Below are positions 106 through 17,940 of a DNA stretch of 58,286 nt, piece after piece. The notes below the pieces were generated by a model that did no database searches, was not told the origin of the DNA, and saw only the letters and a list, made by a program, of their open reading frames with translations. Location: the NCBI GenBank assembly GCA_028818855.1, contig JAPPMY010000134.1, forward strand, positions 2,038 to 60,323, written 5' to 3'. The stretch is from Rhodospirillales bacterium (lineage in GTDB: Bacteria; Pseudomonadota; Alphaproteobacteria; UBA828). Numbering within the stretch: the stretch's first letter is position 1; each line of letters begins with the position of its first letter. The position numbers and the translations under genes were made by a program.

Positions 106-1146
106 TCAGCCGCCGAGCGCGTCCTCGAGGATCGAGCAGTCGATCCCCACGGCGGGGTCGACCGTCTCGGTCATCAGGCCGAAGGTCACCCACCACTTGT
201 TGGTGAGCCTCCAGTGGTCGGCAAGCTGGCCGTTGCGCTGGCCAAAGGGCGGCTCGCCCTCGGCAACGCCGCAGAACTGCGCCGATTCCTCCAGACTATA
301 CATGTAGAGCGTGCCGTCGTCGGGGTTGTTCACGCCGCCGAGGATCGGCTCTATCTCCGCGACGCCCCACTGCAGCACCTCGTCGATCATCGCGTTGCCC
401 TCAGTCGGGTTCTCGCGCCACCACTCGACCGCCTCGTAGCGGGCCTTGATGAGCGCCACCAGCACGTCGCGATGCTCCGCGATGAACGCGTCGGAAACGA
501 AGATGGCATCGGCGATCAGACCCTCCTTGAGCCAGTACTCCTCGCCGGAATGGCTCATCTCGCGCGAGCCGGCGAGCTCTGCCAGCACCTGCGGGCCGTA
601 GGGGTCCCAGAGCTCGGCAGCGTCGAGCTGGCCGGCGATCATGGCGGCGGCGGCGGCATCGGGGAAGAGGTTCACCATCTCCACCTCGTTCCACTTGATG
701 CCGTTCTGCTCGAGCCAGATCGCCATGTAGATTTGCGAGAGCCCGCCTTCGATCACGCCGACCTGCCTGCCCCTGAGGTCGTCGGGCGACTTGATGTCGG
801 GCCCCACGATGATGCGGTCCGACCCGTTGCCGAGATTGGTGAGACCCAAGAGCTTCACCGGCATGTCTTCGGCGAGCGCGATGGGGCCGAATTCGATGGT
901 GCTGGTCACCATGTCGAGCTGTCCGCTGGCGAGCAGGCCCATGCTCTGCACCGGGTCCTCGATGATCGAGATCTCGAGCTCGACGTTCTCCGGCAGCATT
1001 CCCTTCGCCTTGGCGATGTGGAGGAAGCCGTAGCCGGGCCAGCTAAAGTGCGCGACCCTGACGGTCTCCTTCGCGCTTGCGGCGGCGACGACGCCGAGCG
1101 CGAGCGCGCCGGCGGCCAGCGCCATGATGGATGTTCGCCACAACAT
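106..1146 (-). CDS. NitT/TauT-type ABC transporter substrate-binding protein
   Basis: Periplasmic binding protein of an SsuA/TauA/ThiY-type importer, 346 aa. Residues 1-25 form a Sec signal peptide (hydrophobic Ala/Leu/Val core ending ASA before KETVRVAHF). The mature protein has the NMT1/SsuA fold pattern: an early strand giving the FSWPGYGFLHIAKAKG binding segment, a GQLDMV segment, and the DLRGRQVGVIEGG hinge. It is the last gene of a leftward operon, 44 bp after the ATPase gene. The ligand cannot be read from sequence; relatives bind sulfonates, pyrimidine precursors, nucleobases or riboflavin. The neighbouring amidase, RidA and molybdenum hydroxylase genes suggest a small nitrogen-containing compound, which is inference. 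Confidence 0.9.
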   Translation of the reverse strand: MLWRTSIMALAAGALALGVVAAASAKETVRVAHFSWPGYGFLHIAKAKGMLPENVELEISIIEDPVQSMGLLASGQLDMVTSTIEFGPIALAEDMPVKLLGLTNLGNGSDRIIVGPDIKSPDDLRGRQVGVIEGGLSQIYMAIWLEQNGIKWNEVEMVNLFPDAAAAAMIAGQLDAAELWDPYGPQVLAELAGSREMSHSGEEYWLKEGLIADAIFVSDAFIAEHRDVLVALIKARYEAVEWWRENPTEGNAMIDEVLQWGVAEIEPILGGVNNPDDGTLYMYSLEESAQFCGVAEGEPPFGQRNGQLADHWRLTNKWWVTFGLMTETVDPAVGIDCSILEDALGG

Positions 1147-1190
1147 GTTCGTATCTCCCTCTAGTTCCGTTCGATCGTGCGGGCGGGGTC

Positions 1191-2039
1191 CTAGCTGACC
1201 CGGCCCCGAATTTCCTCACGCATCATCGCGTAGAGCTGCCGTTCCATGTCCACGTAGCCGGGGTGAACGAGCAGCTCCTCCTTCTTGCGGAAACGCTTGC
1301 CTTCCTTGAAGTCCATGGGAAGGTCCGCTTTGATCTTCCCCGGCTGACGTGTGTAGAAGATGATCCGGTCGGCGAGGTAGATCGCCTCCTGGATGTCGTG
1401 GGTGACCACCACCACGGTCTTGTTCTCGCGCTCGATGATCTCGATGATCATCTCCTCCATCTCCCAGGTCACCTGGGCGTCGAGCGCGCCGAAGGGCTCG
1501 TCCAGCAGCAGCAGGGCCGGATTCTGAGCCAGCGTGCGCGCGATGGAGACGCGCTGCTTCATGCCGCCGGAGAGTTCCGCCGGATAGGCATTGGCGAAGC
1601 TCTCCAGATGCACGAGGTCGAGGAAGTGCTCGGCACGCTCGCGCCGCTCCGCCTTGGAGAGCCCCTGGAGCCTCAGCCCGTACTCGATGTTGCCCCGCGT
1701 CGTGAGCCATGGGAACGACGTGTAGGCCTGGAACACCATGCCCCGCTCCGGCCCGGGCCCCAGGATCGGCTGGCCGAACATGGTCACGTCGCCCAGCGAG
1801 GGGTATTCGAGACCCGCCATCAGCCGCAGCATCGTCGTCTTGCCGCAGCCGGAGGGGCCGATCATCGCCGTGACCTGGTTGGCATGGACGTCGAAGGAGA
1901 CGTCGTCGAGCGCGATCACGCTGCCGTTCAGATAGCTCTTGGTGACGCGGTTGGCGCGGAAGGGCGGCGCACCCGCCACCGGGGCGTCGATGCCGGATTG
2001 CGCCTGCATCGCCTTTCGCCCGAGACCGAAGACCGCCAT
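1191..2039 (-). CDS. NitT/TauT-type ABC transporter ATP-binding protein
   Basis: Cytoplasmic ATPase (282 aa) that powers the importer formed with the adjacent permease and binding protein. Visible motifs are Walker A GPSGCGKT, signature LSGGMKQR, Walker B LLLLDEPFGALD and an H-loop in VVTHDIQEA, the usual arrangement of the TauB/SsuB family. The reading frame stays open far upstream to 2930 over the permease gene in another frame. I place the start at ATG 2039 because it is preceded by a TAGGAGC ribosome-binding site and begins just before the conserved domain. It lies 11 bp after the permease stop, indicating co-transcription. Confidence 0.93.
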   Translation of the reverse strand: MAVFGLGRKAMQAQSGIDAPVAGAPPFRANRVTKSYLNGSVIALDDVSFDVHANQVTAMIGPSGCGKTTMLRLMAGLEYPSLGDVTMFGQPILGPGPERGMVFQAYTSFPWLTTRGNIEYGLRLQGLSKAERRERAEHFLDLVHLESFANAYPAELSGGMKQRVSIARTLAQNPALLLLDEPFGALDAQVTWEMEEMIIEIIERENKTVVVVTHDIQEAIYLADRIIFYTRQPGKIKADLPMDFKEGKRFRKKEELLVHPGYVDMERQLYAMMREEIRGRVS

Positions 2040-2050
2040 TCCGCCCGCTC

Positions 2051-2926
2051 CTAGCGCCTGACCCGCAGATACGGGAAGAGCAGCCGACTCGCGATCCTGA
2101 AGCTGATGTCGGTCAGCACGCCGAGCACACCGATGGTGAGAATGCCGCCCATCATGATGTCGACGTGGAGGAAGCGCGCGGCCCGCATCATCACCGCGCC
2201 GATGCCGTCGGTCGCCACGATGATCTCGGCGATCACCAGGTAGGTCCAGGCGACCGCGATCATGTTGCGCATGGAATCGAGGATGGCGGGTGCCGCAGCG
2301 CGGAAGGTGATGCCCACGACCTGCCGGCGCCTGGCCCCCATGGTGAGGCCGGATTCGATCAGCTCGCGCTGAACCGCGAGCGTATTGTCGAGGATGAGCG
2401 CCACGAGGAAGAAGAAGCAGCCCAGGAACAGCAGCGCCATCTTGGCGAAGTCGGTCGGCCCGAACCACACCAGCAGCAGCGGCGCGAAGGAGGCCGCCGG
2501 CAGATAGCGCCAGCCCCCCGTGGTGGGGCTGATGAGCGCCCGCAGCTTCACGAAGCAGCCCATGAAGACGCCGAGCGGCACCGCGATCAGGCTGGCGACG
2601 AAGAAGCTCGCGTAGATGCGATAGAGGCTGGTGCCGACGTCGGCGATGAAGTTCTTCTCGGCAAAGAGGTGGGCGATCTCGATCACCACCTGCTCGACGG
2701 CAGGCAGAAAGCGCTGCTTCTCCGCCGGCGTCGCGTAGTGGGCGACCTCCCAGACGGCAAAGAAGACGATCACGCCGACGACTCCCAGCACCACGGTGCG
2801 CCGCTGGGTGAGCGAGCCCAGGACCTCGAGAAACGGCTGGCGCGGCGGCCTGAAGACAGGCGCAGCCCCCTGCGGCTGCGTACCCGACCCAGCCTGCGGA
2901 GCGCCCCCGGCCTGCCGCTCGGCCAT
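2051..2926 (-). CDS. NitT/TauT-type ABC transporter permease
   Basis: Inner-membrane permease (291 aa) of the TauC/SsuC type. A Pro/Gln-rich cytoplasmic N-terminus (about 40 residues) precedes a first membrane segment (VLGVVGVIVFFAVWEVA). Several more hydrophobic spans follow, with an EAA-like coupling loop around ESGLTMGARRRQVVGITFRAAAPAILDSMR. It sits between the triple-RidA gene (53 bp upstream) and the ATPase gene (11 bp downstream) in the Lrp-headed leftward operon. A second ATG eight bases upstream is in the ATPase frame, not this one. Confidence 0.92.
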   Translation of the reverse strand: MAERQAGGAPQAGSGTQPQGAAPVFRPPRQPFLEVLGSLTQRRTVVLGVVGVIVFFAVWEVAHYATPAEKQRFLPAVEQVVIEIAHLFAEKNFIADVGTSLYRIYASFFVASLIAVPLGVFMGCFVKLRALISPTTGGWRYLPAASFAPLLLVWFGPTDFAKMALLFLGCFFFLVALILDNTLAVQRELIESGLTMGARRRQVVGITFRAAAPAILDSMRNMIAVAWTYLVIAEIIVATDGIGAVMMRAARFLHVDIMMGGILTIGVLGVLTDISFRIASRLLFPYLRVRR

Positions 2927-2979
2927 TCATGTCACCCCGGAATCGTACCGTTCACGTCCGGGCCAGGAAGCCCCGTGCA

Positions 2980-4215
2980 TCATCCCTCGACCACCGCGAT
3001 TGCCTCGACCTCGATCAGCAGGTCCTCGAAGGCGTAGCCGTCGACGCGGACCGCCGTCGCCGCCGGCCCGAGCGGCGGGAAGTAGCGACGCCGCACCTCG
3101 GTCATCTTCTCCCAGAACTCGGTGACCGACGTCCCGCTGCCCTCGTAGTGGTAGTAGGTGTTGAGCTTGACCACATCGCTCATCCCGGCGCCGGCCTCCT
3201 CGAGCACCGCGATCAGGCTCTCGAACACGTTCTCGGTCTGCTGGGCGATGTCGCCGGGGCCGACGGTGCGCCCCTTCCGGTCGGCGGAGATCTGCCCGCC
3301 GGCGAACACCACGTTGCCGACCCGCCAGCCCTGGGAGAATTTGACGGGCATGCTCCAATCCCAGTGACCCGCCGGCATGATGCGCCGGCGGTCGCGCCCG
3401 AGGTGGGCGATGCCTTCGAGCTGGATCAGCTCGCCCTCGTGCGAGAAGTCCTTGACCCGAAGCCCCGTGCCGGCGGGTCCCAGGTTCGGCAGGTGCTCCA
3501 TGCGCACGCGGGTCAGCGCCTCCCAGAACGCGGTGACGTCGGCGCCCGTGCTCTCGTGCCGGTAGTAGGTGTTGAGACGCAGGAGGTCGTCCATCGAGGC
3601 TCCCGCCTCGCCGAGGACACGCGCCACGCCCGCGAAGCAGTTGCGGGTCTGCGCCGCGATGTCGCCGGCATCCCTGAGCGAGCCGTCCCCGTTGAACGAG
3701 CGCTGAGCGCCGACGAAGACCCAGTCGCCGACCTGCCAGCCGTGCACGCAGGCGATGCCGTTGCCGCGCGACCAGTGGCCCTCCGGCATGAGCGGGCGCT
3801 TGTCCTCGCCCACCACGGCGAAGGCGTCGATCTCCAGGAGCAGCCCCTCGAATGCGAGGCCCGAGACCGGAGTCTCGGTGGTGACCGGGCCCGGCGCGGG
3901 GCAGTACTCAGCCCGCACCGCGTCGATGCGCCGCACGATCTCGTCCGCCGGCGGGCTCTCGTCGTCCACGACGTAGTAGACGTTCTGCTTCACGATATCG
4001 CCGAAGCCGGCGCCCGCTTCGCCCAGCACGCGTCCGATGAACTCCATGATGTTGCGGGTCTGGGTCTCGATGTCGCCACCCACCGCACGGCCCTTGTCAT
4101 CCGCCGAGATCTGACCGCCGACGACGATCAGGTCTCCGAGCTGCCAGCCCTGGGAGAGCGTGACCGGCATGCTCCAGTCCCAGTGCCCGGCGGGCATGAT
4201 GCGGTGTTTTCTCAT
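2980..4215 (-). CDS. Triple RidA/YjgF-like domain fusion protein
   Basis: A 411-aa protein made of three RidA/YjgF/UK114-like domains in one chain, at about residues 5-138, 141-273 and 278-411. Repeats 1 and 3 open with the same IMPAGHWDWSMPV block and share GGQISAD; repeat 2 opens with the related MPEGHW. Each contains a GEAGA/EEAGA-D-(I/L/V) core. RidA proteins are normally about 130 aa homotrimers with active sites at subunit interfaces, so one chain with three copies could form a covalent pseudo-trimer (inference). By hand alignment none of the repeats has the arginine used by imine-deaminating RidA, so it is probably a non-deaminase Rid subgroup. A GGGGAGGCG ribosome-binding site precedes the ATG. 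It lies 36 bp downstream of the Lrp gene. Confidence 0.9.
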   Translation of the reverse strand: MRKHRIMPAGHWDWSMPVTLSQGWQLGDLIVVGGQISADDKGRAVGGDIETQTRNIMEFIGRVLGEAGAGFGDIVKQNVYYVVDDESPPADEIVRRIDAVRAEYCPAPGPVTTETPVSGLAFEGLLLEIDAFAVVGEDKRPLMPEGHWSRGNGIACVHGWQVGDWVFVGAQRSFNGDGSLRDAGDIAAQTRNCFAGVARVLGEAGASMDDLLRLNTYYRHESTGADVTAFWEALTRVRMEHLPNLGPAGTGLRVKDFSHEGELIQLEGIAHLGRDRRRIMPAGHWDWSMPVKFSQGWRVGNVVFAGGQISADRKGRTVGPGDIAQQTENVFESLIAVLEEAGAGMSDVVKLNTYYHYEGSGTSVTEFWEKMTEVRRRYFPPLGPAATAVRVDGYAFEDLLIEVEAIAVVEG

Positions 4216-4251
4216 GGCGGGTCGCCTCCCCTGCTTCTTGTTCTTTGACCG

Positions 4252-4908
4252 CTACCGGCTGCTGCGCCCGGGCGCCTTGCCCCGGCCGTTGCCGGCGCCG
4301 AGCGGCTTGTCCCACTTGAAGAGGCTCTTGTAGAGGCCGAGCCCCATCATCGGCTCGACCTGGGCGATATCGTCCGCGCCGTAGCAATGGGCGTCCAGGA
4401 AGTCGCGCAGCTCGTCGGGCGAGCCGCACACCACCTCGGCCAGCAGGTCGAAACGGGCCGCGACCCGCATGACGTAGACGACCTCCGGCCGATCGCGGAA
4501 GTAGCACGCGACCTCGTCCGCGCTCGCGCCGCGGGCGACCTTGATGCCGAGCATCGACCAGGCCGTGTAACCCAGCGCCAGCGGGTTCACCACCGTGATG
4601 AAGTGGATCAGGTTGGCCTTGTGCATCTGGCCTACGCGCGAGCGCACCGTCCCTTCGGAGACGCCGAGCGTCCGCGCGATGGTGGAGAACGGCATGCGGC
4701 CGTCCTCCTGCAAGAGCGCCACGATCTCCCGGTTGAGCCCCTCGATGTGGGGGATCGACGCAGGCGCGACCGCGTCGTCCTGAAGGTCCGCCATCCCCAC
4801 CTGGCGCAGGCCCATGATCGGCGCGGGTTCCGCCGATTCGGCCAGCGAACGCAGCCTGGGCCCCCGGCTGCTCCCCTTGGTCTGCGACGGTGGCTTCGAG
4901 GCGCCCAT
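4252..4908 (-). CDS. Lrp/AsnC family transcriptional regulator
   Basis: A 218-aa regulator. The winged-helix domain is at about residues 57-100 (LNREIVALL, then the recognition-helix region RTLGVSEGTVRSRV), followed by a RAM ligand-sensing domain. Typical Lrp proteins are about 150-165 aa; this one carries a basic, low-complexity N-terminal extension of about 50 residues. I chose ATG 4908 because a GGAGG lies six bases upstream; an in-frame ATG at 4926 has no such site. It heads the leftward operon and faces the deacetylase gene across 197 bp, so it probably controls both operons in response to the substrate or an intermediate. Confidence 0.9.
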   Translation of the reverse strand: MGASKPPSQTKGSSRGPRLRSLAESAEPAPIMGLRQVGMADLQDDAVAPASIPHIEGLNREIVALLQEDGRMPFSTIARTLGVSEGTVRSRVGQMHKANLIHFITVVNPLALGYTAWSMLGIKVARGASADEVACYFRDRPEVVYVMRVAARFDLLAEVVCGSPDELRDFLDAHCYGADDIAQVEPMMGLGLYKSLFKWDKPLGAGNGRGKAPGRSSR

Positions 4909-5024: not shown

Positions 5025-5035
5025 ACGAATTTCGT
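5025..5035. promoter_or_regulatory. Palindrome in the divergent Lrp/deacetylase promoter region
   Basis: ACGAA-T-TTCGT is a perfect 11-bp palindrome in a locally AT-richer part of the gap between the two divergent operons. Its position fits an operator for the adjacent Lrp-type regulator, but its length and sequence are not diagnostic. Confidence 0.35.
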
Positions 5036-5105: not shown

Positions 5106-6035
5106 ATGACGCTCAAGCTGATCGACAACCCGGTGCCGTGGCCGGATGGAGCGCGCTGCGCCGTGGCCATCACCTTCGACATCGACACCGACAGCATCCT
5201 CCACCTCGATTTCCCCGACAAGGCGGAGAACATGCTCTCGGCCAACTCGTTCCTGAGATACGACGAGGTGGCGATCCCGCGCATCCTGAAGGTCTACGCT
5301 CACTACGGCATCAAGCAGACATTCTTCTATCCGGCCTGGTGCATGGAGCGTTATCCGCACCTGGTGGATGCCATCCTGGAGGGCGGGCACGAGATCGCGG
5401 CCCACGGCTATCTCCACGAGAACCCCAACGACGAATCGCGGGACCGTCAGGAATACTGGCTCGACCGCCAGATCGACGTGATCGAGCGCATGACCGGCAA
5501 GGCGCCGCGCGGCTGGCGCGCGCCGCTCTACAACGCGTCCAAGCACTCGCCGACCCTGCTTGCCGAGCGCGGCATGCTCTACGACGCGAGCCTGATGGGC
5601 GACGACGTGCCCTGCGTGCTGACAACGTCCAAGGGCGAGGTCATCTGCCTGCCCTCCCACTGGGGCATGGACGACTGGCCCCACTACATGCACAGCCTCG
5701 ACTTCCACTACACCATGACCATCAAGTCGCCGGACGAGGCCATGCGGGTCTTCGATTCCGAGTTCGAGGCCATGTACGAGAACGGCGGCATGCTGATCAC
5801 CGTCTGGCATCCCTTCGTCTCCGGCAGGCTCGCCCGCATGCGCCGTGTCGCCGCGTGGATCGAGGCGTTGCAGAAGAAGGGCGGCGTCTGGTTCGCGACG
5901 ATGGAGGAGATCGCGAGCCACGTGCGGCAATGCATCGACGACGGCTCGTGGAAACCCCGTGTCGAGCAGATGCCCTACTACGACGGGCGCATCCCGGAGT
6001 GGGAGCCGCAGGAGCGCGCCGCAGCCGCCGAGTAG
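5106..6035 (+). CDS. Polysaccharide deacetylase family hydrolase (PuuE/PgdA-like)
   Basis: A 309-aa NodB-homology protein without a signal peptide, so probably a cytoplasmic metal-dependent amide hydrolase rather than a wall enzyme. Motifs: TFDIDTDS at residues 23-30, HEIAAHGYLHE at 95-105 (H95, H100, H104), and RGWRAP at 135-140. The latter typifies the PuuE allantoinase / Helicobacter PgdA branch, which acts on small cyclic amides or N-acyl groups. The frame is open from 5010, but ATG 5106 is preceded by GAGGAGGG. It is the first gene of the rightward series. Opening of a ring or removal of an N-acyl group is the likely reaction; the substrate is unknown. Confidence 0.85.
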   Translation: MTLKLIDNPVPWPDGARCAVAITFDIDTDSILHLDFPDKAENMLSANSFLRYDEVAIPRILKVYAHYGIKQTFFYPAWCMERYPHLVDAILEGGHEIAAHGYLHENPNDESRDRQEYWLDRQIDVIERMTGKAPRGWRAPLYNASKHSPTLLAERGMLYDASLMGDDVPCVLTTSKGEVICLPSHWGMDDWPHYMHSLDFHYTMTIKSPDEAMRVFDSEFEAMYENGGMLITVWHPFVSGRLARMRRVAAWIEALQKKGGVWFATMEEIASHVRQCIDDGSWKPRVEQMPYYDGRIPEWEPQERAAAAE

Positions 6036-6195: not shown

Positions 6196-8082
6196 ATGAC
6201 CGACAGGCTCGAGAGCGACCGGACGGAACAGGCGGCCGGGTCGACGCCCCCGTCCAACAGGGTCTTCCCGAGCCCGTTCGAGCTGCCCACACCCGACGGC
6301 GCGGAAGGGTGGGAAGATCTCTATCCCTACTACTGCCTGATCAGCGACGAGCGCCGGGGGATGGAAGAGGGAAAGTTCTGGTTCTTCGACGGGATGCACA
6401 ACCCGGAGCCGCTCTATCCCTTCGACACCATCATGACCGAGAACTGGTGGGTGGCCGCCAGCCAGATGGCGAGCCGGGTCTGGCCCATTCCGGTCGCCAT
6501 GGGGATCGATCAGCGCCTGGTCAACGGCTACATCTACGTCAGCCCCAACAGCGTCACCGATCCCGACCAGATTGCCGCGCGGCACGAGTACTTCGCCCGC
6601 CGCGCCGGCCACTATTTCGAGAACTGGGACGAGATTTACGGCAACTGGGTGGAGAAGGCGAAGGACTGCATCGCGCGTCTGAACCAGATCGAGTTCCGCC
6701 CGCTGCCCGAGCTGGAGCCCGAGGAGACCGTCTTCGGCCACCGGGGCGTCTACTCCTCCCACGACCTGCTCAGCGCCTACAACCGGCTGATCGAGAACAT
6801 GCTCGAGATGGGCTCCTACCATTTCGAGATGCTGAACCTCGGCTATGGCGCTTACCTCACGTTTCGCGAGTTCTGCCAGCAGGCGTTTCCGGGCATCACC
6901 GACCGGACGCTGACGCAGATCGTCTGCGGCATCGACAATCTCCTGCTGCGGCCGGACGACAAGGTCCGCGAGCTGGCCGCGCTCGCGATCGAGCGGAACC
7001 TCGCCGATGCGGTTCTCGGCCATGAGGACCCTGACGCCATGCTCGCCGCAATGGCCGAGGCGGAGGGCGGCGCCGAGTGGCTGGAGGCGTTCGAAGAGGC
7101 GAAGGAGCCGTGGTTCCACTTTTCCACGGGCGTCGGCTACGACCATTCCGACCCGGTGTGGATCGACGACCTGCGGCTCCCGTTCATGGCGCTGCGCGGC
7201 TATGTCGAGGCCCTGCAGCGCGGCGAGGACATCCGCCGTCCGCTCGACCGCCTGCTGGCGGAGCGGCAGCGGGTGACGGAGGAGTACCGCGCCCTTCTCC
7301 CCACCGACGAGGATCGTGAGGCGTTCGACGGCTTGCTGGTGCTCACCTGCAAGGTCTTCCCCTACGTTGAGGACCACAACTTCTACGTCGAGCACTGGCA
7401 CCACACGATCTTCTGGCGGAAGGTGCGGGAGCTTGCGGACGTCTTCGTCGCGCACGACTTCCTCGACGATCGCGAAGACCTGTTCTATCTGCACCGCCAC
7501 GAGGTCTATGACGCGCTTTACGACCTGCTGATCGGCTGGGCCACCGGCACGCCGTCGCGGGGAGAGGTCTACTGGCGGCCGATCGTCGCGCGGCGCCGGC
7601 GCATTCGGGACGCCCTTTGCGCGTGGACGCCCCCGCCGGCGCTGGGTACCCCGCCCTCGGTCGTCACCGAGCCCATCACCATCATGCTGTGGGGCATCAC
7701 CGAGAAGACGATCGAGGAGTGGCTCGGCGTCGATCCCGCCGAGCGCAGCGATGTCCTGCGTGGGGTGCCCGCGTCCGCCGGCATGGTGACGGGGCCGGCC
7801 CGCGTGATTACCCGCTCGGAGGACCTCTACCGGGCGGGCGAGGGCGAGATCCTGATCTGCCGCATCACAGCGCCGAGCTGGGCGCCCGTCTTCTCCCGCA
7901 TCGCCGCGGCGGTCTCCGACGTCGGCGGCATGATGGCGCACACCGCGATCATCTCGCGCGAGTACGGGCTCCCTGCGGTCGTGGGCGTAGGCTTCGCGAC
8001 CGCAACGATCCGGACCGGCGACCGGATCGAGGTCGACGGCAACGAGGGCACGGTCACGGTGCTGGAGAGAGCCCCGGTATGA
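6196..8082 (+). CDS. PEP-utilizing enzyme with phospho-histidine domain (phenylphosphate-synthase alpha-like)
   Basis: A 628-aa protein (about 70 kDa). The C-terminal 110 residues are the swivelling phosphohistidine domain of PEP synthase/PPDK, with VGGMMAHTAIISREYG holding the predicted catalytic His582. The first 500 residues are the accessory region found in stand-alone PEP-utilizing proteins (FWFFDGMHNPEPLYPFD). It lacks the ATP-grasp domain, which is supplied by the next gene through an ATGA overlap. In phenylphosphate synthase a 70-kDa His-bearing subunit and a 40-kDa ATP-binding subunit phosphorylate phenol. The same division here suggests ATP-dependent phosphorylation of a hydroxyl group, but phenol itself is not implied. 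ATG 6196 was chosen over an upstream ATG without a ribosome-binding site. Confidence 0.85.
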   Translation: MTDRLESDRTEQAAGSTPPSNRVFPSPFELPTPDGAEGWEDLYPYYCLISDERRGMEEGKFWFFDGMHNPEPLYPFDTIMTENWWVAASQMASRVWPIPVAMGIDQRLVNGYIYVSPNSVTDPDQIAARHEYFARRAGHYFENWDEIYGNWVEKAKDCIARLNQIEFRPLPELEPEETVFGHRGVYSSHDLLSAYNRLIENMLEMGSYHFEMLNLGYGAYLTFREFCQQAFPGITDRTLTQIVCGIDNLLLRPDDKVRELAALAIERNLADAVLGHEDPDAMLAAMAEAEGGAEWLEAFEEAKEPWFHFSTGVGYDHSDPVWIDDLRLPFMALRGYVEALQRGEDIRRPLDRLLAERQRVTEEYRALLPTDEDREAFDGLLVLTCKVFPYVEDHNFYVEHWHHTIFWRKVRELADVFVAHDFLDDREDLFYLHRHEVYDALYDLLIGWATGTPSRGEVYWRPIVARRRRIRDALCAWTPPPALGTPPSVVTEPITIMLWGITEKTIEEWLGVDPAERSDVLRGVPASAGMVTGPARVITRSEDLYRAGEGEILICRITAPSWAPVFSRIAAAVSDVGGMMAHTAIISREYGLPAVVGVGFATATIRTGDRIEVDGNEGTVTVLERAPV

Positions 8083-10567: not shown

Positions 10568-11063
10568 GCGCACGATCGGCTTCCGGCTGAACGGGGAGCC
10601 GGTGTCGGCCGCAGCGCCCGTCCGCATGCACGCGGCGGATTTCCTGCGCCACCGCCTGGGCTGGACCGACACGCACGTCGGTTGCGAGCAGGGCGTCTGC
10701 GGCATGTGCACCGTTCTCGTGGACGGCGCTGCGATCAAGTCCTGCCTCATGCTCGCCGTGCAGCTCGACGGCACGGCGGTGACGACGGTCGAATCCCTGG
10801 CCGACGGCGACCGCCTGCACGCGGCACAAGCCGCCTTCAAGCGGCACCACGCGCTGCAGTGCGGCTACTGCACGCCGGGCTTCCTGATGCTGGCGGTAAG
10901 CCTCAAGGCAAGCGGGCGCACGCTTTCGCGCGCCGAGATCCGCGAAGAGCTTGCCGGCGTCCTCTGCCGCTGCACCGGTTACGAGACCATCCTCTGCGCG
11001 GTGGAGGACTATCTGGAAGCGGGCCACGCCCCGGAGCCGCCAGCCGACGAGGCATCCCGGTGA
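10554..11063 (+). CDS. Molybdenum hydroxylase [2Fe-2S] subunit (CoxS-like)
   Basis: A 169-aa small subunit with two [2Fe-2S] clusters. The plant-type ferredoxin cluster is ligated by GCEQGVCGMC...SC (C-x4-C-x2-C pattern). The second, all-alpha cluster is given by QCGYCTPGF and CRCTGYE. It relays electrons from the molybdenum site to the FAD subunit. It starts at GTG 10554, inside the end of the CoxG-like gene, and overlaps the large-subunit gene by 4 bp. Length and motif spacing are normal for the family. Confidence 0.94.
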   Translation: MSGIERTIGFRLNGEPVSAAAPVRMHAADFLRHRLGWTDTHVGCEQGVCGMCTVLVDGAAIKSCLMLAVQLDGTAVTTVESLADGDRLHAAQAAFKRHHALQCGYCTPGFLMLAVSLKASGRTLSRAEIREELAGVLCRCTGYETILCAVEDYLEAGHAPEPPADEASR

Positions 11064-13441
11064 GCGCGCAGCGCCGGAGCCTCATCGGCGCGTCGCTTCC
11101 CCGCAAGGAGGACGACCGCCTCCTGCGCGGTGACGGCCTCTTCACCGACGATGTGCAAATGGCCCACCAGCTCGAGATGGCGGTGGGCCGTTGCCCCTTC
11201 CCCCGCGCCGCGATCGGCGCGATCGACGTCGGCGAGGCCCGCGCCCTCCCCGGCGTCCGGCACGTCCTGACGGGCGCCGACGTGCGGGCCGCGAGCGAGC
11301 CGCTGACAGTGCTGAGGCCCGTGCCCGGCGCGCCGACGCTGCCTTACTACGCGCTCGCGGGCGCAGAGGCGATCCACGAAGGCCAGCCGGTGGTGAGCGT
11401 GGCCGCGACCAGCCGCGCCATCGCTGAGGACGCGCTGGAGCTTGTCGATATCGACTACGAGCCGCTGCCGCACGTGACGGACACCCTGGGCGCCCTTGCC
11501 GACGATGCGCCCGTCCTCCATCCCGAAACGCTCGCGACGAACCTGCTGACCAGCAACGTGGACCGCGCGGGCGATCCGGAGGTCCGGCTGGCCGCGGCCG
11601 ATGTCGTCGTCGAGGGGCGCTTCCGCGTGAACCGCGTGAGCGCGCTCCCCATGGAGCCGCGCGGCATCGTCGCCCGCTGGCGCGCAGGCGCGCGCATGCT
11701 GGAGGTCCACGCCTCCACCCAGACGCCGCACCTGATCCGACAGCAGCTGGCGGAGTGCCTGCCTCTCGACGAAGGGAGCATTCGCGTCATCGCCTCCGAT
11801 GTCGGCGGCGGCTTCGGCATGAAGCTCGGCCTCTACCCGGAAGACGTGCTGGCGGTGCTGCACGCGATGGCGCTCCGGCGGCCGGTCAAGTGGATCGAGG
11901 ACCGCCTGGAGTTCTTCCGCGCCAGCACCCACGCGCGCGAGGCCGTCTACGATATCCGCATCGGCGCGGAGGCCGATGGCCGTATCGTCGCGATCGCCAA
12001 CCAGTACACCACGGACCTCGGCGCCTGGAACTCGACCTTCGGCTCGGCCCAGCTCTCCAGCGTCGTCTTCACCGGCCCCTACAAGGTGGCCGATGCCGCG
12101 GTCGAGCGCCGCGTCGCGCTCACCAACAAGACGCCCATCGGCGCCTATCGCGGCTACGGCCAGCCGGAGGTCAACTTCGCCCTGGAGGTCCTGATCGACC
12201 GGCTGGCGCGCCGCCTGAAGATCGACCCGCTGGCGCTCCGGCGGCGGAACATGCTGCGGCCGGAAGACCTGCCCTGGACCACGCCGAGCCGGGCCGTCTA
12301 CGACAGCGGCGACTATCTGAAGACGCTCGAGATGGCCGCAGACGCCGTCAATTACGCCGGACACCTCGCCGGAGGCCGGGAAGGCCGTGACGACGAGCGG
12401 CTGACGGGCATCGGCTTCGCCTCCTTCGTCGAGCGCACGGGCTACGCCAGCGCGCGCTTTCTCGCGGGGCGCGGCTCGCGCTTCGGCGCCCACGAGAGCG
12501 TCACCTTGCGGGCCAACCGCTCGGGCGGGGTCGACCTCTACACCGGTGTCTCGACCTTCGGCCAGGGCAGCGAGACGGCCTTCGCCCAGATTTGCGCCGA
12601 GGTCCTCGGTATCGACTACGACGCGATCCACGTCCATGCCGGCGACAGCGGCGCATCGCCGCTCAACACCGGCGCCTTCGCCTCGCGCACGCTGATCGCC
12701 GCCGCCGGCGCCATTCGCGAGGCTGCGGACGCGCTTCGCGGAAAGACGCTCCGCATTGCCGCCATGGTGCTGCAATCGACGCCGGCGGCGCTGGAGGTGA
12801 GCGGCCGCATCGTGCGCGTGGCGGACGAGCCCGGGCGCGCCGTGCCTCTGGCGGACATATTCTCCCGTGCGATCATCGGGCAGGGAATTCCGGAGAGCGA
12901 AGAGCCGGGTCTCGAGGCGACCGTGCATTTCGAGCCATCGCACGCGGCGTTCTCGTTCGGCACCGCCGCCGCCGTCGTCTCGGTCGATCCCGAGAGCGGC
13001 GCGTTCGACGTGGAGCGCTTCGTCATGGCGCACGACTGCGGCGTCGCCGTCAATCCGCCCCTGGTCGACGGCCAGGTGCGGGGCGGCCTGGTGCAGGGGC
13101 TGGGCGCCGCGCTGGCGGAGGAGCTTCGTTACGAGGACGGCACGGGCCAGCTCGTGAGCGGCAGCATGCTGGATTACTTCGCGCCCACCATCATGGATGT
13201 CCCGCCCATCGACCTGCTGCACACCGAGGTCCCCTCCCCTGTCACGACCTTCGGCGTCCGCGGCGTGGGCGAGGTCGGCACGATCCCGCCGGCCGCGGCG
13301 GTCGCCAACGCCGTCTGCGACGCGCTCTCCGACTATCGCGTGGAAATCTCCGCCCTGCCGCTCACGCCGGAGCGTGTGTGGCAGGCGCTGTCGGCGGCGA
13401 AGGATACGGGCGTTGGACGAGGGCCACGACGAGGACGCTGA
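11060..13441 (+). CDS. Molybdenum hydroxylase large subunit (molybdopterin-binding, CoxL-like fold)
   Basis: A 793-aa catalytic subunit of the xanthine oxidase/aldehyde oxidase family. It opens with IGASLPRKEDDRLLRG, typical of CoxL-type large subunits. It also has VGGGFGMK and GAYRGYGQPE cofactor loops and the C-terminal catalytic-glutamate motif GVRGVGEVGTIPP. The active-site loop reads AYRGYG, not the Cys-containing AYRCSFR of form I CO dehydrogenase, so CO is not the substrate. Hydroxylation of an aromatic heterocycle, purine-like compound or aldehyde is more plausible. The start is GTG 11060, overlapping the small-subunit stop (GTGA). Confidence 0.93.
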   Translation: MSAQRRSLIGASLPRKEDDRLLRGDGLFTDDVQMAHQLEMAVGRCPFPRAAIGAIDVGEARALPGVRHVLTGADVRAASEPLTVLRPVPGAPTLPYYALAGAEAIHEGQPVVSVAATSRAIAEDALELVDIDYEPLPHVTDTLGALADDAPVLHPETLATNLLTSNVDRAGDPEVRLAAADVVVEGRFRVNRVSALPMEPRGIVARWRAGARMLEVHASTQTPHLIRQQLAECLPLDEGSIRVIASDVGGGFGMKLGLYPEDVLAVLHAMALRRPVKWIEDRLEFFRASTHAREAVYDIRIGAEADGRIVAIANQYTTDLGAWNSTFGSAQLSSVVFTGPYKVADAAVERRVALTNKTPIGAYRGYGQPEVNFALEVLIDRLARRLKIDPLALRRRNMLRPEDLPWTTPSRAVYDSGDYLKTLEMAADAVNYAGHLAGGREGRDDERLTGIGFASFVERTGYASARFLAGRGSRFGAHESVTLRANRSGGVDLYTGVSTFGQGSETAFAQICAEVLGIDYDAIHVHAGDSGASPLNTGAFASRTLIAAAGAIREAADALRGKTLRIAAMVLQSTPAALEVSGRIVRVADEPGRAVPLADIFSRAIIGQGIPESEEPGLEATVHFEPSHAAFSFGTAAAVVSVDPESGAFDVERFVMAHDCGVAVNPPLVDGQVRGGLVQGLGAALAEELRYEDGTGQLVSGSMLDYFAPTIMDVPPIDLLHTEVPSPVTTFGVRGVGEVGTIPPAAAVANAVCDALSDYRVEISALPLTPERVWQALSAAKDTGVGRGPRRGR

Positions 13442-13442
13442 C

Positions 13443-14120
13443 ATGGACTACCCCGCCCGCGGCCGCTACGCGAACGCCGCCCTCTCGCCGCTGGAAGACG
13501 ACGCCATGCAGTGGCTGGACGGCTTCTACCAGCTGGAGCACCTGATCGCGACGCGGATGTGGGCCGTCAAGATCTGCCCCGAGGCCTCGCCCGAACTGAA
13601 GTTCGCAGCGCTCACGCACGATGCCGAGCGCTTCTTCCCCGGCGGCCCCTCCAGCACGCCAGCCAACGGCTTCGACGATCCCGACTACCTCTTCGCGCAC
13701 TCCACCCGCTCGGCGAACATCGTCGAGGAGTGGCTCCGCAACCGCTCGCCGGCGCCGGACGACGCCTTCATCCGGCGCGTGCGCCGGCTGATCCTTCGGC
13801 ACGAGATCGGCGGCGGGTGGGAGGCCGACTTCGTCCAGGCTGCGGACTCGCTCTCCTTTCTGGAAACGCTGGACTGGATCACCGTCGACTGGGTGCGGGA
13901 CGGCCGCTACACCATCGCCCAGGCGCGGGAGAAGCTGGACTTCACCGTCGAGCGCATCCGGCCCTCCGTCGCCGTCGCCGCGGCATTGCCCCTCTACGAG
14001 AGCGCCGTGCGCGCCCTGGATGCCGCCGCCGACTGCACGATGGACCTGAAGCGGCGGCGCGCGCTGGCGAGCAGCCGATCGTTCCTGTTCGGGCTGCCGG
14101 CCGCCCCGAAGGCGGGGTGA
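13443..14120 (+). CDS. HD-like domain protein of unknown role
   Basis: A 225-aa protein starting one base after the large-subunit stop. It has a probable HD-type metal motif (ALTHDAERFF, H59-D60), a further histidine in LILRHEIGGG, and AADSLSFLE, which resembles the distal Asp-containing helix of HD or DUF4202-like proteins. No signal peptide or membrane segment is visible. Tight linkage to the molybdenum hydroxylase suggests it processes a substrate, phosphate ester or cofactor in the same pathway. HD proteins often hydrolyse phosphomonoesters, which would fit the kinase pair upstream, but this is speculation. Confidence 0.7.
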   Translation: MDYPARGRYANAALSPLEDDAMQWLDGFYQLEHLIATRMWAVKICPEASPELKFAALTHDAERFFPGGPSSTPANGFDDPDYLFAHSTRSANIVEEWLRNRSPAPDDAFIRRVRRLILRHEIGGGWEADFVQAADSLSFLETLDWITVDWVRDGRYTIAQAREKLDFTVERIRPSVAVAAALPLYESAVRALDAAADCTMDLKRRRALASSRSFLFGLPAAPKAG

Positions 14121-14245
14121 AGACGCCCGAACGGCCGAAGCACTTAGCGAGCCGGCCCAACGCCTGAGCGGGCGCGGTCGTTTCGGCCATTGTCCTCCGC
14201 CGGATTTCCTGTTCGTCTAACGCAAAAGACAATGGGGAGGAGAAC

Positions 14246-15682
14246 ATGGCGTCGGACGATCTTTGCTACACCACCGCGACCGAGGCGCTGGCGAAGTTCA
14301 CGTCGGGCGACCTCTCGCCGGTGGATCTCATGGCTGCCGTGATCGCGCGCTCCGAGGCGGTCAATCCTGCAGTCAACGCCTACACCTACACCTTCTACGA
14401 GCGCGCGCTGGAGCAGGCGAAGCAGGCCGAGGCGCTCTACGCGTCGGGCGCCGAGACGCGCCCGCTGGAAGGCATCCCCATCGTCATCAAGGATTTCCAC
14501 CCGGTCGAGGGCGAGATCACGACCTTCGGCTCGCGCATGTTCGAGAACCACGTGCCGGAGCACTCGGCGCCGACCGTGGCGCGGCTGCTCGAGGCCGGCG
14601 CGATCATGCACGCGCGCACCACCACGCCGGAGATGGCCCACGCGCCGCACTGCCGCAGCGACCTCTGGGGCAACACGCGCAACCCGTGGAACCTGGACTA
14701 TGGCCCCGGCGGCTCCTCGGGCGGCGCCGCGGCGGCGGTGGCAGCCGGCATGACGACGCTCGCCGACGGCACCGACGGCGGCGGATCGATCCGCATGCCG
14801 GCGGCCTGCTGCGGCCACTTCGGCTACAAGCCGCCCTTCGGCCGCAACCCCATCGACCGCGCGTACCCGCGCGAGTCGCTTCTGCACTACGGGCCCATGA
14901 CGCGGAGCGTCGCCGACGGCGCGCTGATGCAGAACGCGATGGCAGGCCCGCACGCGGACGACATCTGCTCGCTCAGGCCGAAGCTCGAGATCCCGGACAC
15001 GCTCGAGCCCATCCGGGGCTGGAAGGTCGCCTTCTCCATGGACCTCGGCTACTACGAGATCGACGAGGAGGTGCAGGCGAACACCCGCGAGGCCCTGGAG
15101 GCGTTCAGGGGCCTCGGCTGCACAGTCGAGGAGGTGGACCTCGGCTGGGACCTCTCCGTGCTCGACGCCTGGACCACCCACTGGGAGGGCCTCTTCTGGG
15201 CCGCCGCCGGCCACCACTATCCCCGCTGGAAGTACGAGATGGAGGGCTTCGTGCGCCGGCTGCTGGAGCGCGGCTCCCAGCACAGCCTGAGCCGCTTCTA
15301 CCAGTGCAACGAGGTGCGCGGCCGGATGTACGAGACGCTGGCGCCGATCCTCGACGCCTACGACATCCTCGTCTGCCCGACCAACGCGATACCCGCGCTG
15401 CCGGCAGACCACGACATCGAGAACACGGACCTCCGCATCAACGGCAAGACACTGAGCGTCGCCAACTGGCCGGGCGACATCTACGTGCAGTGGCAGCTCT
15501 GCTACCCGTTCAACCTGGTGCCGGAGTGCCCCATCGCCGCGGTGCCGAGCGGCTATGCGTCGTCCGGCGTGCCGACGGGCATCCAGATCGTGGGCCGCAC
15601 CTATGACGACGTACGCGTGTTCCGCGCCGCCGCCGACTACGAGCGCGCGCGGCCCTGGGACCAGCGCCGCCCGCCGCTCTGA
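14246..15682 (+). CDS. Amidase (amidase-signature family)
   Basis: A 478-aa serine hydrolase of the amidase-signature family. The Ser-cisSer-Lys triad is recognisable: Lys in IVIKDFHP, the Gly/Ser-rich [16 protein letters not shown], and the nucleophile loop [27 protein letters not shown] ribosome-binding site precedes ATG 14246. A 125-bp gap separates it from the HD-like gene, so it may have its own promoter, while only 40 bp separate it from the flavoprotein gene. It probably releases ammonia or an amine from an amide intermediate. It is not GatA: no GatB/GatC is nearby. Confidence 0.9.
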
Positions 15683-15722
15683 CCGGCCGCGGGCGGCCGG
15701 GCGGGAGGCTCGGCGAGGAACG

Positions 15723-17408
15723 ATGAGCGAAGCGCCCGTCCATATCTACGCCGACGTGCTCGTGATCGGGGCGGGCGGGGCCGGCATGTATGCGGCCCTC
15801 GCCGCGGCCGAGGCGGGCGCGGACCGCATCGTCCTTGCCGACCGCAACATGGTGGGACGCGGCGGCGCCACGGTGATGGCGCAGATGACCGTCGCCGCCG
15901 CCCTCGGCGAGGCCGAGCCGGACAGCGTGGACGACCACCTGGAGGATACGCTGGAGGCGGGCCGGGAGTTGTGCGATCCGGCGCTCGCCGCGCTTCTCTG
16001 CGAGGAGGGGCCGGCGCGGATCCGCGAGATGGACTCCTGGAAGGTCGGCTGGGCGCGGGAAGACGGGCACATCGCGCAGGTCACCGCCCCCGGCCACAAG
16101 CGCCGGCGCTGCTGCTATGTGGACATCCTCAACACCGGCCCGGCCGTCGCCGCGACGCTGCGCCGCCGAATCGCGCGCGTGGACGCGATCAGGCGCGTCT
16201 CCGGCCTAGTGGTGACCGACCCGGTGCTGGCGGACGGGCGGCTCGCGGGCGCGGTCGGCTTCGATATCGAGACCGGCCGTGCCGTCACGGTGGCGGCGCG
16301 GGCGACGGTGCTCGCGACCGGCGGCCTCACGGGCCTCTACGCGCGCTCCAGCGCGTCGGCCAACATGGCGGGCGAGGGGCACGCCTTCGCGCTCGCCGCC
16401 GGTGCGGCGCTGATCGACATGGAGTTCGTGCAGTTCTTCCCCATCGGCCATCTCTTTCCGCGCCTCGTCGGCATGGACCCGATCATGTGGGACCCGTTCC
16501 GCTACAAGCTGGGCGGGCGGCTGCTCAACGGGGAGATGGAGGAGTTCCTGCCGCGCTACGGCGGCACGGACGCAGGCCGCTACACGGCGACGCGCGACCT
16601 CGCCACCCACGCGATCTGGCACGAGGCGCGGGCGGGGCGGGGCTCGCCTCACGGCGGCGCCTGGCTTTCGTTCACCCATGTCAGCGAGGCCGCGTTGCGC
16701 GACGCCTTCGGCCCGGTGATCGACCGCCTGCACGCGAACGGCATCGACCTGACGGAAGCGCCGGTGGAGGTCGCGCCCATCGCGCACTACCACATGGGTG
16801 GCATCGCGGTCGACGCGGGGCTGGCGACGCGCGTGCCGGGGCTCTTTGCGGCCGGCGAGGCCGTGGGCGGCGCCAATGGCGCCAACCGGCTCTCGGGCAA
16901 CGCCATCACGGAAGCCCTGGTGTTCGGCCACGGGGCGGGGCGGAACGCCGCAGCAGAGGCCCTACGCACGGCCGGTGCGTGGGCTCCGAGCGCCGCGCAA
17001 CCTGCGTTGGACACGCTGGCGGAGCGGAGAGAAGCCCGAGGCGAAGGGTTATCCACGCTCGCGCTCTCGCGCGAGCTGGGCCGGCTCATGTGGGAGCAGG
17101 TCGGGCCGTTGCGAGACGCAGCGGGGCTCGCGGGGGCGGTGGCGCGCATTCGCGGCATGCGGGACGAACTTCCCGATCTCTCGGTCCCCGCGTGCGGCGC
17201 GTACGACACCGGGCTCGCCGACTGGTACGGCCTGCGTGCGGGGCTCGAGGTGGCGGAGGCGATCGCTGCCACCGCCGCCCGGCGGCAGGAGAGCCGGGGC
17301 GCCCATCAGCGCGAGGATTTTGCTGAGATCGACCCCGGATTTGCCCGGAGTCAGATCGTGACCCGCGCGGGCGGCGACCTCGCGCCAGCCTTCGGGGCGG
17401 CGGCTTGA
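15723..17408 (+). CDS. FrdA/SdhA-like FAD-dependent oxidoreductase
   Basis: A 561-aa flavoprotein of the fumarate reductase/succinate dehydrogenase/aspartate oxidase superfamily. The N-terminal dinucleotide fold is VLVIGAGGAGMYAALAAAEAG. The capping and FAD region includes HYHMGGIAVDAG and GLFAAGEAVGGANGANRLSGNA, which are highly typical. The SdhA-type C-terminal helical domain is present. Active-site residues for dicarboxylates are not clearly conserved, so a different substrate is likely. ATG 15723 is used; the frame is open further upstream inside the amidase gene. The next gene, one base downstream, encodes its likely iron-sulfur partner. Confidence 0.88.
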   Translation: MSEAPVHIYADVLVIGAGGAGMYAALAAAEAGADRIVLADRNMVGRGGATVMAQMTVAAALGEAEPDSVDDHLEDTLEAGRELCDPALAALLCEEGPARIREMDSWKVGWAREDGHIAQVTAPGHKRRRCCYVDILNTGPAVAATLRRRIARVDAIRRVSGLVVTDPVLADGRLAGAVGFDIETGRAVTVAARATVLATGGLTGLYARSSASANMAGEGHAFALAAGAALIDMEFVQFFPIGHLFPRLVGMDPIMWDPFRYKLGGRLLNGEMEEFLPRYGGTDAGRYTATRDLATHAIWHEARAGRGSPHGGAWLSFTHVSEAALRDAFGPVIDRLHANGIDLTEAPVEVAPIAHYHMGGIAVDAGLATRVPGLFAAGEAVGGANGANRLSGNAITEALVFGHGAGRNAAAEALRTAGAWAPSAAQPALDTLAERREARGEGLSTLALSRELGRLMWEQVGPLRDAAGLAGAVARIRGMRDELPDLSVPACGAYDTGLADWYGLRAGLEVAEAIAATAARRQESRGAHQREDFAEIDPGFARSQIVTRAGGDLAPAFGAAA

Positions 17409-17409
17409 G

Positions 17410-17751
17410 ATGAGCCGTGCCACCGCCACCCTGCGCATCGCCCGCAGCGGGCCCGGCCGCAATGCGCAAGTCGAAACCTTCGACGTGCCCTACGAGACCG
17501 GCGCCTCGGTGCTCGACGGCCTGATCTGGCTGCGCGAGAACCGCGACCCCGCGCTCGCCTTCCGCTACAGCTGCACCAATGCGAACGTGTGCAAGGAATG
17601 CACCATGCGGATCGACGGCGAGACGGCCTACGCCTGCACGGCCCGCCTCCGGCCCGGAGCCATGACGCTGGAGCCCTTGCGCAACAAGCGGGTGATCCGC
17701 GACCTGGTGACCGACACCGTCCCGCCAGCGGAGCGCCTGGAGAGCGGTTGA
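17410..17751 (+). CDS. Stand-alone [2Fe-2S] domain protein (SdhB/FrdB N-terminal type)
   Basis: A 113-aa protein matching only the N-terminal ferredoxin domain of SdhB/FrdB. The cluster ligands are in YSCTNANVCKECTMRI and AYACTARL. The first cysteine gap is five residues, against four in most SdhB proteins. The C-terminal domain that carries the [4Fe-4S] and [3Fe-4S] clusters is absent, and the stop is followed by non-coding sequence and a tRNA, so this is not a truncated reading frame. It begins one base after the flavoprotein stop and probably shuttles electrons between that enzyme and a soluble or quinone-linked acceptor. It ends the rightward series. Confidence 0.85.
   Translation: MSRATATLRIARSGPGRNAQVETFDVPYETGASVLDGLIWLRENRDPALAFRYSCTNANVCKECTMRIDGETAYACTARLRPGAMTLEPLRNKRVIRDLVTDTVPPAERLESG

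Positions 17752-17864: not shown

Positions 17865-17940
<76 letters not shown>

Follow-up and report, generated by a model that had tools for sequence, protein, structure and literature searches.

Introduction

This study concerns a 16-gene locus at positions 106-17751 of a 58,286-nucleotide stretch of DNA from a Rhodospirillales bacterium (hereafter the window: positions 2038-60323 of contig C18 of the organism's own genome, G000), and above all a block of seven genes in it that encodes a two-component kinase (KinA, KinB), a molybdenum hydroxylase (CoxM, CoxG, CoxS, CoxL) and a protein of the HD fold. The closest described system is the 3-hydroxypyridine dehydrogenase (3hpd, HpdA) cluster of Ensifer adhaerens HP1, described by Wang et al. 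in 2020, where phosphoenolpyruvate (PEP)-utilizing and PPDK proteins are reportedly involved in the activity, in a role left unstated. In excerpt, the HP1 paper (AEM 86:e01313-20, doi 10.1128/AEM.01313-20) has "four-component" in its title and reports 3hpd to be spread over Actinobacteria and Alpha-, Beta- and Gammaproteobacteria (PMC10117386); an excerpt of another paper states that a CoxG homologue is thought to anchor the HP1 enzyme to the membrane (PMC11962113). For Agrobacterium sp. DW-1, the excerpted proposal is that 3-hydroxypyridine is converted to 2,5-dihydroxypyridine and then to N-formylmaleamate (PMC6525221).

A second group of relatives is formed by the two-component aryl dikinases. 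As excerpted, the literature has PpsAB, CreHI and HpeHI phosphorylating phenols, both components being required (PMC9618137, PMC12167813), with 4-cresol as a substrate of CreHI (PMC9618137); HpeH carries the motif T/SxxGGxxxH and H581Q abolished activity (PMC12167813). In the Hpe pathway a carboxylase acts on the phosphorylated substrate only and a phosphatase follows (PMC9618137), the enzymes of the Cre p-cresol pathway are CreHI, CreJEF, CreG, CreC and CreD (PMC8796525), and Pas converts phenol to phenylphosphate, its product from aniline being too unstable for detection. Why such phenols are phosphorylated is called unclear in one of these excerpts (PMC12167813).

A preliminary description, made from the letters of the window, had read the whole locus as one undescribed pathway. 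We lean instead towards a locus of separable modules: the seven-gene block (module B) would be of the 3hpd kind and would tag its substrate with phosphate, hydroxylate it with the molybdenum enzyme and remove the tag again, while the importer operon and its neighbours (module A) would supply a hydroxylated ring. The substrate, the order of the steps, the phosphatase role and the feeding of B by A are what we infer.

A portable cassette that fits the 3hpd cluster

Module B is a portable cassette of seven genes, KinA-KinB-CoxM-G-S-L-HD, found in Alpha-, Beta- and Gammaproteobacteria and in Mycobacterium. Scanning named genomes with KinA gave 29 loci, of which 4 belong to the window's family and 10 are cassette loci from outside that family; the remainder are L048 and 14 others (L023, L024, L034 and L044 repeat the genomes of L012, L014, L013 and L015 and add no loci). 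Because this sample was drawn by KinA similarity, the evidence for conservation lies in the neighbours and not in the presence of KinA itself. Of the 10 outside loci, 9 have the full set of seven genes and L029 ends after CoxG; L033 has its HD gene placed between CoxG and CoxS, a position where Nic homologues are also found in L025, L033 and L049. Hosts include Salinicola, Phytohalomonas, Paraburkholderia, Actibacterium, Pusillimonas, Neopusillimonas, Acetobacter and Mycobacterium, with Salinicola peritrichatus (L026), Paraburkholderia tagetis RG36 (L028), Acetobacter conturbans and Pusillimonas caeni as named bearers.

Several features of the block recur in the 3hpd cluster: (i), a four-component molybdenum hydroxylase with a CoxG homologue, as in the HP1 excerpts, the separate SRPBCC subunit being recognised by Pfam and kept at related loci; (ii), PEP-utilizing and PPDK-like genes beside the hydroxylase, as is said of HP1; and (iii), a spread over Alpha-, Beta- and Gammaproteobacteria and Actinobacteria, again as excerpted. 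Unlike 3hpd, the window has no linked 2,5-dihydroxypyridine genes (that this linkage is defining is an assumption), and its cassette shares a locus with an importer, RidA3, Lrp, PuuE and a diiron monooxygenase. Judged by gene content, module B fits a member or close variant of the described cluster.

The neighbours of the cassette suggest where its product goes. At least one NicX, NicF, NicE or NicD homologue stands in the stretch examined at 8 of the 10 cassette loci outside the family (not at L026 or L030), and NicX at 6 of them, whereas none of the four was found at 25 other KinA-family loci (14 from named genomes, 6 from plasmids and 5 from the phylum scan, five of them under 11 kb). UbiD carboxylase homologues show the reverse pattern, with 9 of the 25 control loci against 0 of 10. 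L048, where the contig ends inside a 59% identical KinA, has NicX, NicF and NicD and was left out of the count. Judged by its match to the solved 2,5-dihydroxypyridine dioxygenase 7cn3 (E 4.6e-164), the L028 NicX is nearly certainly that enzyme, and its NicE matches maleate isomerase (E 1e-86). Because of this linkage and these identities, the cassette probably feeds the 2,5-dihydroxypyridine/maleamate route in the Nic-linked bacteria outside the family.

Within the family the picture is less favourable, and four points count against extending this route to the window: no NicX, NicF, NicE or NicD homologue is present in the window or in the family loci L013, L014 and L015; the NicX homologue of the own genome (42% identity) lies on another contig and occurs also in genus mates that lack module B; NicF-type homologues abound and lack specificity, the own genome alone having 7 with a best value of 43%; and no maleate isomerase turned up at E<=1e-15 across the 8 genus genomes, NicD not having been sought genome-wide. 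The genus-wide NicX homologue (L068 on contig C202 of G000, L069 on contig C49 of G002) looks like a separate dihydroxypyridine locus. In G002 its neighbours are a Rieske oxygenase, an Amidohydro_2 protein and a sugar-type ATP-binding cassette (ABC) importer, the last of which has homologues ahead of the cassette in Pusillimonas and Neopusillimonas. At L025, L026, L027 and L028 the cassette adjoins a gene that clusters with an ammonium-transporter-family protein (a Pfam assignment at L026 only), which perhaps moves ammonium, or the heterocycle.

A kinase related to the aryl dikinases

At E<=0.001, Pfam finds nothing but the swivel domain PF00391 in KinA, at its C-terminus, and nothing but PF01326 in KinB: the ATP-grasp domain is on a separate subunit and a PEP-synthase C-terminal domain is missing. 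Split ATP-grasp and swivel/substrate components and a His motif are shared with PpsAB, CreHI, HpeHI and Pas alpha/beta, from which the window kinase differs in being paired with a molybdenum hydroxylase and not with a carboxylase or a P450. Its KinA motif, SDVGGMMAH, fits T/SxxGGxxxH, and the catalytic His is present in 38 of 38 rows that reach its column among 40 aligned KinA rows (duplicates L034 and L044 included; L043 and L048 stop short), with deviations elsewhere in the motif in the distant rows L019 and L020. KinA is 44-47% identical to plasmid-borne members of Azoarcus and Rhodococcus and falls with the Rhodococcus kinase into one NCBIfam full-length group, PRK08296. The relatives of KinA and KinB are aryl dikinases, KinA being related to phenylphosphate synthase, CreHI and HpeHI. 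In a tree of 37 rows (L034 and L044 left out) the window KinA falls inside a clade of 14 rows, all of them cassette KinAs (98/94); its closest neighbours there are a Halomonadaceae/Paraburkholderia group (92/85, under the starred level), and Mycobacterium branches off outermost.

Plasmids place the same kinase family in other company. Ten plasmid records carry KinA homologues and six neighbourhoods were viewed: the Azoarcus relative adjoins phenylphosphate carboxylase, that of Rhizobium a biotin carboxylase subunit and a HAD hydrolase, that of Natribaculum lies near Rieske dioxygenase and phosphatase genes, and that of Thermomicrobium near a molybdenum hydroxylase of another type. Two Rhodococcus plasmids, which are closely related and therefore count as one case, have the kinase beside a P450, an SDR, a ferredoxin, an HD protein, an aldehyde dehydrogenase and a toluene 4-monooxygenase (T4MO) operon. 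We take this arrangement to be the Cre p-cresol pathway, CreJEF being presumably the oxidase (P450) and CreD the HD protein. The window resembles Cre in combining kinase, oxidase and HD protein, with the related Rhodococcus plasmids adding the T4MO neighbour; unlike Cre, it has a molybdenum hydroxylase in place of the P450, and its HD protein has no detectable sequence kinship with that of Rhodococcus. Two KinA-family loci, L037 (Chloroflexi) and L109 (Thermomicrobium), have an other-type molybdenum hydroxylase nearby, with CoxL 33-38% identical; the pairing of kinase and molybdenum hydroxylase may have arisen more than once.

The kinship of KinA also bears on what the kinase acts upon. It could leave the substrate alone and activate or mature the molybdenum hydroxylase, for example by phosphorylating a subunit or the cofactor, in keeping with the HP1 proteins that are reportedly involved in HpdA activity in an unstated role. 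We regard this as distinctly unlikely: the characterised PpsAB, CreHI, HpeHI and Pas (the latter on phenol) phosphorylate small aromatics, as far as the excerpts describe them, and KinA shares its full-length group with the Rhodococcus kinase.

The molybdenum hydroxylase and the HD protein

CoxL has quinoline 2-oxidoreductase as its best solved relative (504 bits), and molybdenum hydroxylases that act on heteroarenes oxidise carbons adjacent to the ring nitrogen. Against a heterocycle-directed enzyme stands the second-best solved relative, carbon monoxide dehydrogenase (CODH), at 476 bits versus 504. The active-site loop of CODH is AYRCSFR or AYRGAGR; CoxL of the window and 14 other module B rows (two of them duplicates) have AYRGYGQP, and L109, outside module B, has AFRAVGWT. 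The loop led us to reject CoxL as a CODH, second-best relative though CODH is. Among plasmids CoxL matched 146 records, all below 60% identity in the best 15 of the 146.

The nature of the ring can be weighed here. Module B might act on a benzenoid phenol or an aromatic amine in place of a hydroxypyridine: excerpted work has relatives of the kinase acting on phenols and aniline, module A encodes a toluene-type monooxygenase, and no Nic genes are linked in the window's family. We nevertheless think a benzenoid substrate unlikely, given the preference of heteroarene hydroxylases for positions next to a ring nitrogen, the closeness of CoxL to quinoline 2-oxidoreductase, and the nesting of the window KinA among cassette KinAs that are mostly Nic-linked.

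The HD protein is a proposed phosphohydrolase. H33, H59-D60, H86, H120 and D135 are invariant in 13 of 13 sequences, and its structure model (mean predicted local distance difference test score, pLDDT, 88.9) matches mainly HD proteins, with a template-modelling (TM) score to the query of about 0.4-0.5. Compared with genus mate G002, the ratio of nonsynonymous to synonymous substitution rates (dN/dS) runs from 0.07 to 0.42 across 13 genes of modules A and B (module C excluded), the HD protein having the lowest value. On the other side of the balance, KinB (0.28) and CoxG (0.42) evolve faster than the other genes; the fold search gave a best E of 0.012 and nothing below 0.001; its top match is cyanamide hydratase, HD folds including non-phosphatases; Pfam scores for HD and DUF4202 stay below cut-off; and the cassette HD protein shows no significant sequence kinship with the Rhodococcus one.

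An importer operon that runs into a diiron monooxygenase

Module A is built in two arms around Lrp, with PuuE on one side and RidA3-permease-ATPase-binding protein-TmoA-B-D-E on the other. The leftward operon had been described as a triple-RidA protein plus an importer; these genes are there, but the operon continues past the window edge into a T4MO-like diiron enzyme. Contig positions 1-2038 hold its alpha subunit and TmoB, leftward and next after the binding protein, and in genus mates the operon goes on with TmoD (PF02406) and TmoE. Because the own contig ends inside TmoD, the effector and beta subunits are complete only in the genus mates; own genome and genus mates combined present the T4MO-type set (alpha with diiron ligand residues, TmoB, effector and beta). 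The G002 alpha subunit matches structures of toluene o-xylene monooxygenase (ToMO) and of T4MO with E values from about 1e-187 to 1e-178, and the own copy, 96% identical to it, has Glu/His at 104, 134, 137, 197, 231 and 234, which we take to be the diiron ligand positions of T4MO. Of the 8 genus genomes, 7 have the alpha subunit at >=95% identity, G004 as a fragment, and the one without it, G003, has a completeness of 67%. Three alpha subunits of this kind occur in the own genome, and at E<=1e-60 one or more in 17 of 30 genomes.

The likeness to T4MO and ToMO thus covers the alpha subunit match, TmoB, TmoD, TmoE and the ligand positions. Unlike T4MO, the enzyme lies within an importer operon and has no TmoC Rieske gene in the usual place, there being no room for one between TmoB and TmoD (the region beyond TmoE and the rest of the genome were not searched); this absence counts against the proposed scheme. 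Among the literature matches listed and excerpted, no report of T4MO making 3-hydroxypyridine was found. The hpdABCDE enzyme of Burkholderia sp. MAK1 is reportedly a diiron enzyme; it appears in the reference list of an excerpted paper as a 2-hydroxypyridine 5-monooxygenase. Module A probably imports and hydroxylates an aromatic compound, probably a nitrogen-containing one.

Lrp does lie between the two arms, as first described, but it is transcribed leftward, 36 bases from RidA3, and is therefore probably the first gene of the leftward operon. In the 290-base gap between Lrp and PuuE, six genus genomes share conserved blocks; one of these, ACGAAtTTCGT, is imperfectly kept and is a candidate operator. 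At E<=1e-50 the triple RidA has its own genome as sole match among 398 sampled phylum genomes, and it is also present in genus mates. In archetypal RidA proteins an arginine is catalytic for imine deamination; its position is taken by T, G and A in domains 1, 2 and 3 (domains 1 and 2 read by alignment with domain 3). Because all three domains lack it, imine deamination by RidA3 is doubtful, and we rejected RidA3 as an active imine deaminase. The best solved relative of PuuE, 3rxz (E 4e-58), is labelled merely polysaccharide deacetylase.

Modules that come apart

The locus is a composite of separable catabolic modules, and the relatives resolve it into three, so its genes do not make up one conserved pathway. 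That description had named a failure of the genes to stay together as grounds for giving it up, and this is in part what is seen: Lrp, importer, RidA3 and PuuE occur without the kinase/molybdenum block in G005 and G007, where module A is complete and KinA is lacking (in G004 it is partly seen on a short contig). The co-occurrence it had proposed to check is likewise partial, KinA being found in 4 of 8 genus genomes (the genus is represented by metagenome bins, and two of the four negatives are merely 62-67% complete), in 5 of 95 relatives and, at E<=1e-40, in 7 of 398 phylum genomes, the other six of these seven being 26-42% identical. In the same family, G018 (L015) has module B and no module A gene within the 20 kb seen. 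Both observations weigh against a fixed partnership: with A found without B in the genus and B without A, A need not feed B.

These distributions would also suit two unrelated pathways that happen to adjoin, A serving a substrate of its own and B having been inserted later beside PuuE for another. Where B is absent, PuuE has different neighbours (in L100 a DAO/GCV_T oxidoreductase, in L101 a formamidase-family gene and a further molybdenum hydroxylase); G018 has B with no A in the stretch seen; and B is portable. We hold such an arrangement to be quite possible, if short of an even chance; against it, module B lies directly behind PuuE in the same orientation in all four KinA-bearing genus genomes (the G001 contig ends in CoxM), and a T4MO-type enzyme stands beside the same kinase family in Rhodococcus too.

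Module C, the amidase, the FrdA-like flavoprotein and the short [2Fe-2S] protein, is the least shared part. At E<=1e-60, FrdA was found among 20 genomes in the own genome and as one 36% match in another family, with no match in the 7 other genus genomes; plasmids gave none at E<=1e-50. No amidase homologue reached E<=1e-60 in the relatives' loci examined, neither the amidase nor the [2Fe-2S] protein having been searched genome-wide. Where the window has module C, G002 and G006 instead encode an alcohol dehydrogenase and hydantoinase A (HyuA). PuuE and FrdA are not obligatory companions of the kinase/molybdenum route, because PuuE occurs without that block and FrdA is absent from the other genus genomes; we rejected one conserved pathway including FrdA on the latter ground. 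All genes do lie on one contig in consistent orientation, as a single linear pathway (import, ring opening by PuuE, phosphorylation, molybdenum hydroxylation, amidase and an FrdA redox step) would have it; with its parts separable, FrdA confined to one of the 8 genus genomes and other genes in its place in G002 and G006, we consider that pathway very improbable.

Gene set, reading frames and right border

All 16 genes are present and intact, and Pfam, reading frames and conservation bear out their content as first described (Table 1). The G+C content by codon position backs 13 of the 16 frames; the mechanical open reading frames of the ATPase, KinB and CoxM begin far upstream and lie outside the filtered G+C list, and these three frames are supported by Pfam and conservation, with starts placed by hand. 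Of the tightly overlapping rightward series first described, the stretch from KinA to HD stands, with 4-base overlaps at KinA/KinB, KinB/CoxM and CoxS/CoxL and a 27-base gap at CoxM/CoxG; the tight packing is confined to it, with gaps of 160 bases between PuuE and KinA, 125 between HD and amidase and 40 between amidase and FrdA. A promoter and terminator scan of 4700-18000 gave two matches of each kind.

Table 1. Features of the locus with their positions in the window and the basis of each assignment
Feature	Position	Strand	Basis
NitT/TauT-type (NMT1) substrate-binding protein	106..1146	-	Pfam; conserved in genus
Importer ATPase	1191..2039	-	Pfam, hand-placed start, conserved in genus
Importer permease	2051..2926	-	Pfam, conserved in genus
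RidA3, three tandem RidA-like domains (Ribonuc_L-PSP)	2980..4215	-	Pfam, alignments
Lrp/AsnC regulator	4252..4815	-	Pfam, conserved in genus; hand-checked start
Candidate operator ACGAAtTTCGT	5025..5035		Lrp-PuuE gap
NodB/PuuE-like hydrolase (PF01522), motifs TFDID and HGYLH	5106..6035	+	Pfam
KinA, substrate-binding and swivel component, catalytic His582	6196..8082	+	Pfam, alignment
KinB, ATP-grasp (PPDK_N) component	8079..9173	+	Pfam
CoxM-like FAD subunit	9170..10033	+	Pfam
CoxG-like separate SRPBCC subunit	10061..10567	+	Pfam
CoxS-like [2Fe-2S] subunit (Fer2 and Fer2_2)	10554..11063	+	Pfam
CoxL-like molybdopterin subunit	11060..13441	+	Pfam, structure relatives
HD-fold protein, proposed phosphohydrolase	13443..14120	+	Residues, model, fold search
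Amidase	14246..15682	+	Pfam
FrdA/NadB-like flavoprotein	15723..17408	+	Pfam
Short [2Fe-2S] protein, SdhB N-terminal domain only	17410..17751	+	Pfam
tRNA-Ala(CGC)	17865..17940	+	DNA-level comparison

A DNA-level comparison shows window positions 86-14098 to be collinear with both G002 and G006; from about 17973 to 21490 collinearity returns, here with other contigs of those two genomes and of G005. The part in between, which contains module C and tRNA-Ala, has no counterpart in the relatives' stretches compared. Synteny breaks near the tRNA-Ala gene and resumes to its right at about 17973. The tRNA was rejected as a shared landmark, ARAGORN finding none in L117-L119, L013, L014 and L100. Right of it, at 17982-21419, lie a transglutaminase gene, an Alpha-E gene and a third gene, which are conserved on other contigs in genus mates. 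Farther along the window, 27273-28799 encodes an MTTB-family trimethylamine methyltransferase in a continuous frame of 508 amino acids, with no in-frame amber codon as a consequence, and 39172-45919 carries three hydantoinase-type genes on the + strand, two of type B and one of type A.

Discussion

The preliminary description had proposed a catabolic locus with ATP-dependent phosphorylation, molybdenum-dependent hydroxylation and a nitrogen heterocycle as its likely substrate, and judged from the sequences these parts were right or remain plausible. Its pathway was also called undescribed, which is partly right: the kinase-to-HD block fits the described 3hpd cluster, while the phosphate-tag logic was not found in the literature searched. 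Among the matches listed in a search of open-licence PubMed Central, none joined hydroxypyridine, phosphorylation and a molybdenum hydroxylase, and we know of no other molybdenum hydroxylase with an aryl phosphate as its true substrate.

The kinship of the kinase to aryl dikinases, the Hpe precedent, the residues and fold of the HD protein and the closeness of CoxL to quinoline 2-oxidoreductase together lead to the proposal that module B phosphorylates, hydroxylates and dephosphorylates. KinB would bind ATP; KinA would take up the phosphate on His582 and hand it to 3-hydroxypyridine, or to a closely similar compound, at the ring hydroxyl; CoxM, CoxS and CoxL, with CoxG as an anchoring subunit, would then insert oxygen into this phosphorylated ring at a position adjoining its nitrogen; and the HD protein would strip the phosphate to leave 2,5-dihydroxypyridine or a similar compound. 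KinAB would receive its hydroxylated ring from the diiron monooxygenase of module A, a step proposed because of the analogy with Rhodococcus, where a T4MO stands beside the same kinase family and presumably makes the phenol (p-cresol) for it. A complete aerobic phosphate-tag pathway for a pyridine-type ring, with diiron hydroxylation, a dikinase tag, a molybdenum enzyme that oxidises the tagged ring only and untagging by the HD protein, seems rather doubtful to us; its likelihood is lowered by G018, where the stretch seen contains B and no A.

If module B works as proposed, it would contain what is, to our knowledge, the first molybdenum hydroxylase truly acting on an aryl phosphate, and it would explain why PEP-utilizing and PPDK proteins are, reportedly, involved in 3-hydroxypyridine dehydrogenase activity. 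Because the cassette is present in named strains, the proposal can be put to the bench. The phosphate-tag strategy, used for phenol, p-cresol and acetovanillone, would extend to molybdenum hydroxylases and to nitrogen heterocycles; with a different type of enzyme downstream, the question of why phenols get phosphorylated would become testable anew.

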